From Candidatus Zixiibacteriota bacterium (GTDB lineage Bacteria; Zixibacteria; MSB-5A5; GN15; FEB-12), in the NCBI GenBank assembly GCA_024277795.1, contig JAJRUL010000037.1:1-39275 (forward strand): 39,275 bases of DNA, written 5' to 3'. Below the pieces are notes generated by a model. The model was not told the origin of the DNA and made no database searches. It saw only the letters and a program-made list of their open reading frames with translations. Position numbers and translations under genes: made by a program. Positions 28,245-38,784 of the stretch are shown here, piece by piece. Every line of letters starts with the position of its first letter. Within the stretch, counting starts at the first letter, position 1.

Positions 28245-28315
28245 CTGTCTAGATTTACTTGCAGTAAGAACTGCTTTCTGGTACTCTTAATCCAAAACAA
28301 AATATATGGATGTGT

Positions 28316-29401
28316 ATGCTTGATATAGTAGATAAAATAGAAAAACGATTACAGGCGATCGACAATCAGATGGCTGATCCTGAAATGGCAGGAGATCAAA
28401 AGAAGCTGATTGAGCTCAACCGTGAACGTCGTACTGTAGCGAAAATTCTTGAAGCGGGTGAAGAATACCGTCGGGTAAAGCTCGCGATTGATGAAGCTCA
28501 GGAGATCATTGCCTTAAATGAAGATGCTGAGCTGGTTGAGATGGCTAAAGAGGAATTGGCTGAGTATGAGGCACAGATTGAGGATGTTGAAAAGAGATTC
28601 AAACTTGAGCTAATCCCGAAAGACCCGACTGATGACAAACCCGCAATCGTGTAAATGCGAGCGGGAACGGGCGGTGATGAGGCGGGGCTGTTTGTTGGCG
28701 ACCTCTTTCGGATGTATCAAAAATGGGCTGATCAACAAGGCTGGAAACTTGAAATAATCAGCTCAAGTGAAACTGGCGTAGGTGGATTCAAGGAAATAAT
28801 ATTCTCATTGGATGGCGAAAATGCTTATGGCACGATGAAATACGAGTCAGGTGTGCATCGTGTACAACGAGTTCCGCAAACGGAAACACAAGGACGGATT
28901 CATACATCGGCTATTTCCGTTGCGGTTCTTCCTGAAGCTCAAGAAATTGATGTCGAGATAAAAGAGAATGAAATCAAAGTTGATGTCTATCGATCTTCGG
29001 GGCCTGGAGGGCAATCGGTAAATACGACAGACTCAGCAGTACGCCTGACTCACCTTCCGACTGGTTTGGTAGTTATGTGCCAGGATGAAAAATCCCAACA
29101 CAAAAATCGTGCAAAGGCTCTCAAAGTACTTCGGGCACGGTTGTATGATAAAAAATTAGCTGAACAGCAGGCCAAAATAGATGCTGAGCGACGAACTATG
29201 GTTTCATCAGGAGATCGCTCGGCCAAAATACGTACATATAATTTCCCTCAATCCAGAGTAACTGACCACAGAATTAACCTAACATTGTATAAACTAGACC
29301 AGATATTGCAAGGTGACCTCTCTGAAGTAATTGGTGCTTTGCAACAATATGAACAGAACCAAAAATTGAAGATTCAGGAAGAAAGTGGAGGAGAGTCATG
29401 A
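28316..29401 (+). CDS. prfA: Peptide chain release factor 1 (RF1), interrupted by one in-frame UAA
   Basis: RF1 releases peptides at UAA and UAG. Both halves are in the same frame and together match RF1 end to end: about 361 codons against 360 residues in E. coli. The first half ([12 protein letters not shown] to [14 protein letters not shown]) is the helical domain 1. The second contains [12 protein letters not shown], the PxT recognition tripeptide as PQT (codons 187-189), the catalytic GGQ (231-233) in SGPGGQSVN, and [22 protein letters not shown]. PxT rather than SPF excludes RF2. Between the halves, codon 113 is TAA (28652-28654), where RF1 normally has Glu before [IM]RAGTGG; GAA to TAA is one base change. 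An ATG follows immediately. Readthrough, reinitiation (112 + 248 residues) or a sequence error are all possible. An alternative ATG lies at 28310. The last bases overlap the next gene. Confidence 0.93.
28652..28654 (+). other. prfA: In-frame UAA inside prfA
   Basis: The context is ATC GTG TAA ATG CGA. The reading frame is the same on both sides, so this is not the +1 frameshift arrangement known from prfB. The next codon is ATG with no Shine-Dalgarno sequence of its own, so any separate downstream product would depend on coupled reinitiation. Confidence 0.9.
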
Positions 29402-35019: not shown

Positions 35020-35478
35020 TTACGATTTACCAAGCATCTGCCTTGCAACTGCAACGAGCGATCCGTGTGTAATACACTCTCGAAGGAATCTCGGGTATGC
35101 TTGGGTTTTGAAGACCTCATCACCTAATGCTATTGTCCCTTTAGTCAAAGATATAGCTATATCAGCATTATCGTTCACCGTTGCGGGAATCTCAGCTGTA
35201 AAGAGGGGCAAACCTGTATTCACTGCATAGCGAAAGAATTGCCGTCCAAAATCTCGTGCAATTATCGCTTTAATTCCAGTATCTTTCAGCCTCGCTATTT
35301 CTTTCTCTGATATTCTACCATGACCGAACTGTTCTGTTGATACAATAATCTCGGCTGATTGTAGACTGTCACCCATACCATCGCATTCACCAAAAAGCTG
35401 TTCATCTGAAGAACGAAAAATCATCTTAGCTGTGATCGGTTCGTTCACTAATACAAATTTCCCCTGGATCTCATTCAT
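35020..35478 (-). CDS. Degenerate LeuD-like (aconitase swivel domain) protein
   Basis: A 152-residue protein with the fold signature of isopropylmalate isomerase small subunits: AEIIVSTEQFGHGR, then DTGIKAIIARDFGRQFFRYAVNTGLPLF, aligning with GVKAVIA.SF..IF.RNAINNGL of LeuD. The substrate-binding loop FGCGSSRE is replaced by FGHGRISEKE (51-60), and the N-terminal DTD.I.P.RY region is ITAKMIFRSS. A functional isomerase is therefore unlikely. The gene is 28 bases downstream of the DNA methyltransferase on the same strand, not beside a LeuC in the usual leuCD order. Its probable partner is the HTH-LeuC-like protein at 37159. Homology is well supported; the non-catalytic role is an inference. Confidence 0.75.
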   Translation of the reverse strand: MNEIQGKFVLVNEPITAKMIFRSSDEQLFGECDGMGDSLQSAEIIVSTEQFGHGRISEKEIARLKDTGIKAIIARDFGRQFFRYAVNTGLPLFTAEIPATVNDNADIAISLTKGTIALGDEVFKTQAYPRFLRECITHGSLVAVARQMLGKS

Positions 35479-35506: not shown

Positions 35507-36451
35507 TTATATTCCTGCTATAGATGTAGTCATATTATGTTTAAACGGCTGTTCTGATTGCCAACCTACTTTTCCTGTCTCTCTATAGTGCTCTAAACGT
35601 CTGATCGTAAGCTCTGCAAAAATCGGGTCAATATCGAGAGTAACACACTTGCGATTATTCTGCTCACAAGCAATCAATGTTGTTCCCGAATGTGCAAAAA
35701 AATCTGTTACGGTATCACCTGATGTAGTTGAGGCAAGAATGATACGCGCTATCGCCTTGAGTGGTTTTTGAGCATAGCATCCCGCTACATTTTCATGCAT
35801 TCGATAAAATACCTGTTGGATATCTACCCAGACATTCCCTGGTCTGATCGTTTCGGATCTCGAGCGTTCCAAATTCTCGCTTCTCCGCCCCTGTACTTCT
35901 TTATAATATCCCCTGAGAATCTTTGGAATATCTGTATACTGTACCTCAAACTCAGGATTCCCCCACGTATAGCAAAGAAGCTCTTGACGTACTGCCATCC
36001 AATTCTTCTGTGTCCCATATCCCCGCTGATTTCGCATAGTGATAAATGAACGGGAGACGTAATCAGTTTCAGCCATCATCAACATAAACTGTGGCAATGG
36101 TTGAAAGTGCTTCTTTTGATCAGCACCCAACCAGACATACATTGAGGCATGTTCTGCTAAGATCCCAGATGTATTTTCCACCCACTTCTTGCACCAGTTG
36201 ATATATTCATCAACCGACTTCATAGCAAATGCTACAAGATTATAGGGAGGATCATGCACCGCAAGAGTTGCACGTGTATCCTCAAAAAGAGACTTAACAA
36301 ACAGAGAGTCTGTTGCATCTCCACAACCTACAACATGCCGACCTTCAGGATCATGCCAAACTTCACCTTGTTTTAACCGACATTGTTCTAACAAGAGAGA
36401 CCGACAGTTTTCATCGGTAAGATCGAGTCGATCTGCTTTTTCCACCAACAT
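35507..36451 (-). CDS. DNA methyltransferase (N4-cytosine/N6-adenine type, beta order)
   Basis: A 314-residue DNA amino-methyltransferase. Motif IV DPPY at 67-70 precedes the SAM motif I region DFFAHSGTT (250-258) and LDIDPIFAELTIRRLEHY, so the motif order is that of beta-class enzymes. The usual FxGSGTT is FAHSGTT here, with His for Gly. Further family features: EHASMYVWLGADQKKHF, ITMRNQRGYGTQKNW and QKPLKAIARIILASTTSGDTV. No restriction endonuclease or specificity subunit is adjacent, so it behaves as an orphan methyltransferase. It is the first gene of an operon with the LeuD-like gene and divergent from the HIT gene. Target sequence unknown. Confidence 0.85.
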   Translation of the reverse strand: MLVEKADRLDLTDENCRSLLLEQCRLKQGEVWHDPEGRHVVGCGDATDSLFVKSLFEDTRATLAVHDPPYNLVAFAMKSVDEYINWCKKWVENTSGILAEHASMYVWLGADQKKHFQPLPQFMLMMAETDYVSRSFITMRNQRGYGTQKNWMAVRQELLCYTWGNPEFEVQYTDIPKILRGYYKEVQGRRSENLERSRSETIRPGNVWVDIQQVFYRMHENVAGCYAQKPLKAIARIILASTTSGDTVTDFFAHSGTTLIACEQNNRKCVTLDIDPIFAELTIRRLEHYRETGKVGWQSEQPFKHNMTTSIAGI

Positions 36452-36521
36452 AGTATGAATTTGCGATCATAGCAGATTCAGCTCAACAAAAAACAGAAAA
36501 CCGCACAAATATCGGCTTATG

Positions 36522-36596
36522 TAAGGAATTGTCCTACATTGTATTAGAGGGCAGACCTGCCACCCACAGGAACTGCCTGTAAATCCGTTAATTAAC
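36522..36596. promoter_or_regulatory. Divergent promoter region with several palindromes
   Basis: Within the 222-base interval between the methyltransferase and HIT genes lie four dyads: AGGA-attg-TCCT at 36525-36536; GGCAG-ac-CTGCC at 36550-36561; ACAGG-aactg-CCTGT at 36566-36580; and the perfect ten-base GTTAATTAAC at 36587-36596. The middle two share AGG/CCT cores in close tandem. They are plausible operator sites; no clear -35/-10 pair was fixed. Confidence 0.35.
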
Positions 36597-36673
36597 AACA
36601 AGTTAGCACTGATACGATAAAAACTGCAAGAGCTACTTGGCAGTAGAATGAAATTGAATTATCATATATCACT

Positions 36674-37162
36674 ATGGCTGACAAGACTCTATGGGCACCC
36701 TGGCGCGCCGGGTTTGTGCTATGTAAAAAAGAAAAAGGGTGTATCTTTTGCACTCGGCTGAAAAAACGGGATTCAACCTCGAATCTGATTGTTCATCGTG
36801 GTAAAACCTGCTTTGTCATTCTTAATAAGTATCCATATAATGCAGGCCACACGATGGTGGTACCAAAGCGACATATCGGCCAAATTGAAAGACTCAACAA
36901 AGAAGAATCTGCTGAGCTTTTTGAACTGACTAGAACAACAGTTGCGGTGATCAAAAAAGCTCTCAAGCCACACTCGATGAACCTTGGCATGAATATCGGT
37001 AAATCTTCAGGTGCTGGTGTACCGGGACATCTTCATATGCATATAGTGCCACGATGGACAGGTGATACGAATTTCATGCCTGTAATCGGTGAAACTAAAG
37101 TTATCTCAGTATCACTGAAAAAAGTGTATGATGCGATTCGCAAGGAGTTCAAACTACGATGA
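36674..37162 (+). CDS. HIT family nucleotide-binding protein
   Basis: A 162-residue histidine-triad protein. It starts LWAPWRAGFV and has a zinc-type CIFC (23-26), then LNKYPYNAGHTMVVPKRH and MNIGKSSGAGVPGHLHMHIVPRW with the catalytic triad His119-x-His121-x-His123, followed by GDTNFMPVIGET. It belongs to the Fhit/Ap4A-phosphorylase-like branch, which hydrolyses or phosphorolyses dinucleoside polyphosphates or nucleotide-adenylates. Its stop overlaps the start of the HTH-LeuC-like gene (ATGA), so the two are translationally coupled. All catalytic His are present. Substrate not determinable. Confidence 0.9.
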   Translation: MADKTLWAPWRAGFVLCKKEKGCIFCTRLKKRDSTSNLIVHRGKTCFVILNKYPYNAGHTMVVPKRHIGQIERLNKEESAELFELTRTTVAVIKKALKPHSMNLGMNIGKSSGAGVPGHLHMHIVPRWTGDTNFMPVIGETKVISVSLKKVYDAIRKEFKLR

Positions 37163-38784
37163 CTCCTCGTCGCAAGATTCCGACCAAGTCTGAACTGATT
37201 CAGCTTCAGAAATTATATAAGACTGATGAAAAGATAGGCGAACGTCTTGGTGGGGTACCGGCCTATTTAGTTGCCTATTGGCGCAGGAAAAAGAATGTTG
37301 CTCGACACTCTGTGCCAAAATTCTCTGAAAGCGAAATCAGGAATCTTTGGGAGCGTTTTGGCGATGATGATCGTTGTGGTCTTGAACTCGGTATTTCCAA
37401 AGCTGCGTTCTACAATTGGAGGCGACGCTACTCCATTCGTGAAAAACCTGCATTTCTAAAACTTGAACAGCTCGAACTGAATCTTCCCGGAATGCTGGCT
37501 AAGCAACAATCCTCCTCGCTTTATGGCGAACAGACCGTAGCTCAAAAAATGCTGGCGATAGCTTCGGGAGAAGAAAAAGTCACAACTGGTGAGTTAATAA
37601 TGGTCGAACCGGATTTGGTTACCTCACATCAGGACAGTGCAAAAATAATAGAGCATTTCAAAGAAGTCGGGGTTGAGTATGTTCGTGATCCTTCAAAAAT
37701 AGCAATCACTCTTGCTCAGTGTACTGAAGTAGACAACAATACAACGGCAACAAACCTCAAGATGATCCGCGAGTTTGTACGCAAGCATAGCATACAATCA
37801 TTTTATGACCTAACCAACGGCACCTGCCATCAGTCAGTCATTGAACATGGCAACATTCTCCCAGGACAACTTATCCTCGGGACTAATAGATATATCGCAT
37901 CTTGTGGGGCTTTTGCCGCTTTTGCTACTGATATCACACCAGCTGAAGCCGCGACTATCTGGGCAGGTGGCAAAATATGGCTGAAGGTGCCAGAGACTAT
38001 TCGTATTGATATTAACGGCCGTCGCCCACGTGGGATTCTCGTTCGAGATATCGCACTTTCAGTACTCTCACAGTTAGGGGTTGGATCAGCTGAATATCAG
38101 GCAGTTGAGTTTTATGGTACAGCAATTTCACATCTTCAGATGAGCGAACGGATTGCTTTGTGTAATATCACACTTGAGCTTGGTGCAAAAGCGGTCATCT
38201 GTCCATTTGAAGCTACTACAAGACGATATCTCAACAGTCGCACGACCTCTCTCTATCAACCTGTTATTGCCGACAAAGACGCTATCTATCGTCAAGCATT
38301 TCAGTTTAACATTGAAAAATTACAACCACAGATTATCGGCCCAGGTCGAGACGGAACAACAAAACCTGTTCCTGAACTTGATAACCTGTCAGTTCAACAA
38401 ATCGTTATTGGGCAATGTGCCTCAGGACGTTTTGATGATTTGCGAATTGTTGCAGATATTCTAAAAAGCAAGAAAGTCCATGCTGATTGTCGTCTGACTG
38501 TTATTCCCGCTTCTCATACTGTTTATCTTGAAGCTCTAAAAAAAGGTCTTGTTCGCGCAATGCTTGAAGCGGGTGCAGAAGTTGTCAACCCAAGTGGACA
38601 TTCATGGAATATGCAAAGCGAGCAATTACTCGGAACGGGTGAGCGTTGTTTGAGTACGGGAAATCACTCCTTTTTTGATCGTTTTGATCGCGATGATGTC
38701 GAAATATATCTTTGTTCGACTGCAACAGCGGCAGTCAGTGCACTCAATGGCCGAATCACCGACCCTACCCCGTATGTACGGTAG
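37159..38784 (+). CDS. HTH-fused pseudo-isopropylmalate isomerase (LeuC-like) protein
   Basis: A 541-residue fusion. Residues 11-47 and 57-93 are two similar helix-turn-helix units, ending VAYWRRKKNV and FYNWRRRYSI, of homeodomain-like type. From about 120 the protein follows LeuC: GELIMVEPDLVTSHQ, FYDLTNGTCHQSVIEHGNILPGQL, AAFATDITPAEAATIWAGGKIWLKVPETIRI, AVEFYGTAI, GAKAVICPFEAT, CASGRFDDLRIVADILK and STATAAVSALNGRITDP. Cys420 of the Fe-S site is kept, but the later CxxC (PGCxxCLG in LeuC) is PSGHSWN (478-484). The DSH motif is TNR (242-244) and the FDH motif AQC (186-188). No 4Fe-4S enzyme is expected. Probably a DNA-binding regulator sensing a ligand through a dead isomerase fold; function is inferred. 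ATG overlaps the HIT stop. Confidence 0.85.
   Translation: MTPRRKIPTKSELIQLQKLYKTDEKIGERLGGVPAYLVAYWRRKKNVARHSVPKFSESEIRNLWERFGDDDRCGLELGISKAAFYNWRRRYSIREKPAFLKLEQLELNLPGMLAKQQSSSLYGEQTVAQKMLAIASGEEKVTTGELIMVEPDLVTSHQDSAKIIEHFKEVGVEYVRDPSKIAITLAQCTEVDNNTTATNLKMIREFVRKHSIQSFYDLTNGTCHQSVIEHGNILPGQLILGTNRYIASCGAFAAFATDITPAEAATIWAGGKIWLKVPETIRIDINGRRPRGILVRDIALSVLSQLGVGSAEYQAVEFYGTAISHLQMSERIALCNITLELGAKAVICPFEATTRRYLNSRTTSLYQPVIADKDAIYRQAFQFNIEKLQPQIIGPGRDGTTKPVPELDNLSVQQIVIGQCASGRFDDLRIVADILKSKKVHADCRLTVIPASHTVYLEALKKGLVRAMLEAGAEVVNPSGHSWNMQSEQLLGTGERCLSTGNHSFFDRFDRDDVEIYLCSTATAAVSALNGRITDPTPYVR

Follow-up and report, generated by a model that had tools for sequence, protein, structure and literature searches.

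A tandem helix-turn-helix module fused to a decayed isopropylmalate isomerase, a probable core DNA-binding regulator of the Zixibacteria

The gene at 37159-38784 (forward strand) of the window, a 39,275-nucleotide stretch of a Zixibacteria draft genome (contig JAJRUL010000037.1), is an intact open reading frame of 541 amino acids that joins a tandem helix-turn-helix (HTH) module to the body of an isopropylmalate (IPM) isomerase large subunit (LeuC). We consider it probable that this essentially single-copy fusion protein is a core DNA-binding regulator in which the dead isomerase serves as a scaffold, and that its ancestor was bifunctional.

The body, residues 125-541 (37531-38781, +), has the LeuC/IPM isomerase large-subunit fold with the catalytic and Fe-S residues lost. 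Residues 125-536 were matched by the PRK00402, HacA_fam and LEU2 models with E-values of 1e-113 to 1e-92 and by Pfam Aconitase with 7.8e-58; the PRK00402 match (E 1e-113) scored 379.6 bits against a cut-off of 385, and the LEU2 equivalog score, 311.6 against a cut-off of 610.65, was far below. The closest solved structure was the IPM isomerase large subunit MJ0499 (8e-78 by sequence), to which Foldseek aligned the AF2 model of the window protein (pLDDT 87) with a TM score of 0.91. An earlier note, made from the letters of the window, had placed a LeuC-like body behind HTH repeats and had proposed comparing a predicted structure with LeuC; the homology models, the Aconitase match and the recovered large-subunit fold all bear this out. 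The window protein is thus homologous to LeuC, yet judged by its sequence it is not a functioning LeuC. No described protein with this architecture was found in the literature searched, in keeping with the earlier note, which knew of no characterised one, and the architecture is not a product of chance, because it recurs across the phylum.

In the residue alignment, Cys420 (38416-38418, +) was the sole cluster cysteine kept, and the former CxxC at residues 480-483 (38596-38607, +) now reads GHSW, with G480 and W483 at the positions of C480 and C483; this agrees with what had been read from the sequence before. Catalytic residues were replaced at DH (AQ, 186-187), DSH (NRY, 243-245) and NRN (NHS, 502-504, with the Arg lost). 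The loss of DSH and of FDH had also been noted before and stands, but the replacements then given, TNR and AQC, came from an alignment shifted by one, the true readings being NRY (243-245) for DSH and LAQ for FDH. With two of the three cluster cysteines, DH, DSH and the NRN Arg all gone, the pseudo-LeuC is predicted to be catalytically dead, as was originally proposed, and the loss of two cluster cysteines also removes what a reversible 4Fe-4S switch of the IRP1 type requires.

The N-terminal part was modelled by AF2 as two three-helix units, the first at residues 10-44 (37186-37290, +; helices 10-20, 23-29 and 35-44) and the second at residues 57-90 (37327-37428, +; helices 57-67, 70-77 and 81-90). 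Scanning of 27 N-terminal sequences gave HTH_Tnp_1 in all 27 and HTH_23 in 21, weakly (E up to 0.1); in the window protein both matches fall at residues 76-92 and are weak, under the Pfam cut-offs. The nearest solved folds of the module were the bipartite DNA binders Mos1 transposase and DUX4, again weakly (E 0.1 or worse), and a sequence search for homologues of the module in phage families and solved structures returned generic HTH matches only. The two N-terminal HTH repeats of the earlier note are supported by the modelled units and these family matches, and from its fold and conservation the tandem HTH is a predicted DNA-binding module.

A profile of the N-terminal module was found in 121 of 133 Zixibacteria genomes and in 77 of the 79 good ones. 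It is essentially single copy, with one strong copy per genome and a second weak match in two genomes (G030 and G038). Outside the phylum, 254 sampled genomes yielded no strong match; four gave weak ones (E 2e-4 to 8e-4), of which one that was followed up (G141) proved to be a transposase-like open reading frame of 379 aa. In a pattern-based scan of 84,980 species, which reaches close relatives only, all matching records bore the titles Zixibacteria, Calditrichota or FCB group or were called simply bacteria. The full fusion was present in most genomes of the window's family, mostly at 47-62% identity. On the sequences compared, the HTH-LeuC fusion is a phylum signature of Zixibacteria.

A tree was built, with the active-site columns removed, from the bodies of 74 fused proteins and of 18 LeuCs that these genomes encode without a fusion. 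One branch, with support of 100/100, parted every fused from every unfused body, as a single fusion predicts, and independent fusions are not favoured; the tree points to one ancient event that joined a tandem HTH to a large subunit of the isopropylmalate isomerase family. Nine of the fusions (families f6, f11, f16 and f17) are intact: they retain the three cluster cysteines and each of the eight catalytic positions that were scored. In another seven the three cysteines are present but catalytic residues are lost, and 58 have fewer than three cluster cysteines. Since fully intact fusions exist beside graded decay in others, the fusion is older than the decay. On the tree, no fewer than seven changes of state are needed to explain the complete cysteine set, whose loss was therefore probably a repeated event. 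The earlier note had expected HTH fusion and CxxC loss to co-occur and had named fused homologues that keep the cluster and catalytic residues as evidence against its reading; the nine intact fusions and the seven with three cysteines contradict that expectation. Two unfused LeuC-like proteins (L082 and L084), with DY for DH and a PGCSLC cluster motif, form a separate odd branch.

The small subunit has decayed with the large one. At 35020-35478 (-) the window holds a degenerate LeuD, overlooked in the earlier note, in which GSSRE has become GRISE (Aconitase_C 2.4e-4, just under the cut-off); its homologue in other families is an intact LeuD, encoded after an HTH-LeuC that is itself intact. Intact HTH-LeuC occurs at loci L069, L070, L104-L107, L112, L116 and L120, and in eight of these nine an intact LeuD comes next, with GCGSSREQ preserved in all eight and a loop of the type YPG(K/R)(Y/C)LPI. 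The GSSRE motif was gone from each LeuD that was inspected next to a degenerate fusion, and in many genomes of the window's family no LeuD-like gene was found. With both LeuC and LeuD damaged, the original catalysis has very likely been lost in the window's lineage. That the protein is still an enzyme with an altered chemistry is a very remote prospect: nine relatives are indeed intact, but in the window's lineage the cluster cysteines, DH, DSH, NRN and the LeuD GSSRE have all been hit.

Regulation of leucine synthesis was considered and rejected for the window genome, where no other LeuC was detected and LeuB matches reached only the level of isocitrate dehydrogenase (IDH)-like proteins, absences that are provisional in a draft 90.7% complete. 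Five strong LeuB-like genes were found in the genomes searched, and those whose positions were checked (G082, G095 and G096) adjoin unfused LeuC. Leucine synthesis is also unlikely to be the pathway of the intact fusions.

Within the window's family, mean pairwise identity was 0.88 for the HTH and 0.48 for the body. Catalytic and cluster columns fell to pairwise identities of 0.06-0.35, and the structural Gly, Pro, Asp, Glu and Arg columns that are invariant in canonical LeuC stayed at 1.0. In close pairs, the HTH had a dN/dS of 0-0.025, the body one of 0.08-0.16 and the catalytic loops one of 0.17-0.27, the last being ~1.3-2.6 times the value of the remaining body; another two pairs were saturated. 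This pattern indicates that the body is under selection and the catalytic loops are relaxed; the fusion protein is accordingly functional, with the HTH its most constrained and the old pocket its least constrained part. Decay into a pseudogene, which the lost active site might bring to mind, can be given next to no credence when reading frames are open across the phylum, the HTH is nearly invariant and dN/dS is well under 1 in every computable pair. Nine basic residues are common to the window's family and are not those of canonical LeuC (R288, R291, R355, R356, R361, K373, R429, K462 and R466), and these newly conserved Arg and Lys residues suggest a new contact surface.

The same measurements bear on the reading of the protein as a classical one-component regulator, in which the old pocket binds a malate or citrate derivative and thereby switches DNA binding. 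The fold is kept under purifying selection, and an HTH joined to an enzyme fold is a usual layout for such regulators, for example MocR/GabR (PMC8739950). A shared ligand, however, needs a shared pocket, and near-random catalytic columns among invariant structural ones, with relaxed catalytic loops, make this reading rather unlikely; the dead isomerase as ligand sensor, which the earlier note had put forward, is not favoured for this lineage. Sensing by the fast-evolving folded body at another site is possible.

We therefore prefer a core regulator built on a scaffold. The ancestor would probably have been a bifunctional trigger enzyme, given that a few families keep an intact isomerase together with LeuD. 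Both isomerase subunits are dead in the window's lineage, where selection holds most tightly to the DNA-binding module; there the fusion protein would have a core role, in regulating transcription or in organising DNA. Its HTH would bind a fixed DNA target, which should be nearly unchanged because the HTH is nearly unchanged over the whole family. The old isomerase body would be a scaffold that stays folded and mediates oligomerisation or contacts with partners, a role favoured over a pocket sensor by orthologues that share no pocket.

The target of the HTH does not appear to be its own promoter. A HIT-family gene (36674-37162, +; Pfam HIT 1.2e-16) precedes the fusion gene in one operon and overlaps its start, and in 73 of the 75 fused loci the gene immediately before the fusion is a HIT gene. 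Twenty-eight regions upstream of the operon were searched by k-mer and EM motif methods for a conserved operator and none was found; all that came out was an AT-rich -10-like promoter element together with a short stretch next to where the methyltransferase gene starts. Autoregulation at 36452-36673 was rejected on this result, and the binding to that region proposed in the earlier note was pursued through the same search, which found no such operator there. In many relatives the AT-rich -10-like element (36640-36676 in the window) seems to sit only a few bases from where the HIT reading frame starts, a spacing of the kind known from leaderless transcripts.

An orphan N6/N4 DNA methyltransferase (35507-36451, -; Pfam N6_N4_Mtase 1.3e-27) stands on the other side of this region. 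Most genomes of the window's family carry it, at 61-73% identity and mostly near the fusion, in varying order and on either side, as might be expected if in this family the fusion protein were its reader or partner in an epigenetic pair resembling GcrA/CcrM. The search of other families, in which the HTH is conserved too, found no close homologue of the methyltransferase. Being limited to the window's family, the methyltransferase does not belong to the core system, and such a pair, at most a family-level addition, is improbable. Elsewhere in the window, prfA (release factor 1, 28310-29401) carries an in-frame TAA at 28652-28654 with an ATG directly after it. Among 51 genomes searched, a stop inside prfA was clear in the window genome only, one further TAA probably being the gene's own end, and the split prfA could reflect either a mistake in the assembly or a genuine peculiarity.

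After the HTH module, residues 104-109 (37468-37485, +) read QLELNL, at the edge of a disordered linker. The pattern Q[LMI]x[LIF]x[LFI] was found in 74 of 74 fused proteins, the fifth position being free, and residues 106-118 had pLDDT <50 (predicted disordered). The hexameric beta-clamp-binding motif (CBM) is QLxLxL (PMC4564189), and the resemblance of QLELNL to it is suggestive. The fusion protein might then bind DNA in the service of replication or repair instead of regulating transcription, tethered by QLELNL to the DnaN clamp as E. coli polymerases are by their CBMs. The match to the hexameric motif, its presence in every fused protein at the start of a disordered linker and the essentially single-copy, phylum-wide distribution speak for this. 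Six residues beside a conserved domain may, on the other hand, be kept for packing (in a shorter N-terminal model the helix extends to 107 and covers part of QLELNL), and the gene is not consistently near dnaA; overall we regard a clamp-tethered role as possible but unlikely. The fuller version, a phylum-defining chromosome factor in which a tandem-HTH binder rides on the replication clamp through QLxLxL and whose bulk is a dead isomerase from central metabolism, is offered as speculation.

A single sub-clade (loci L014, L023 and L053, and also L015 and L013) has clusters of perfect DnaA boxes (TTATCCACA) in front of the HIT/HTH-LeuC operon, up to ~330 bases upstream of the HIT gene. An oriC/dnaA neighbourhood was rejected, the distances from fusion to dnaA ranging from ~77 kb to >1 Mb.

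With a core regulator on an isomerase scaffold as the preferred reading, the HTH-LeuC family is probably an enzyme-fold regulator with an unusually complete evolutionary series, as far as its sequences tell. Within one phylum it would show how an enzyme turns into a protein that binds DNA: the fusion came first, catalytic loss followed repeatedly and the partner subunit decayed too. The order of events in the evolution of a regulator could be tested with living proteins. It would also be an apparently core DNA-binding protein of a mostly uncultured phylum, of which no description was found in the literature searched. In the chromosome-factor reading, living members of the phylum still display the whole path, with an HTH-isomerase that apparently works at one end, intermediates that keep the cluster in between, and at the other end bodies that can hardly be recognised as LeuC.

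Among known systems, the archaeal-type LeuC/HacA proteins (MJ0499, PDB 4kp1) share fold and homology with the whole body, and intact fused relatives keep their catalytic and cluster residues and mostly adjoin a LeuD gene; the window protein differs in its N-terminal tandem HTH and in being without the active site, the cluster ligands and the leucine pathway context. IRP1, which Foldseek found at a lower score than MJ0499, and bacterial aconitases are cases of an aconitase-superfamily fold turned into a nucleic-acid-binding regulator. IRP1 binds RNA through the enzyme fold itself and switches with its cluster, whereas in the window protein the likely binder is the added HTH and the cluster is lost. 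Intact HTH-LeuC with LeuD shares with the trigger enzyme PutA the layout of an enzyme plus a DNA-binding domain, although in PutA both differ from those of HTH-LeuC, and most HTH-LeuC members, unlike PutA, appear dead. MocR/GabR regulators likewise join an HTH to an enzyme fold, that of an aminotransferase, used in regulation; they have a single winged HTH and a conserved cofactor or ligand site, whereas the HTH-LeuC fusion has two HTH units, and its old active site has become randomised.
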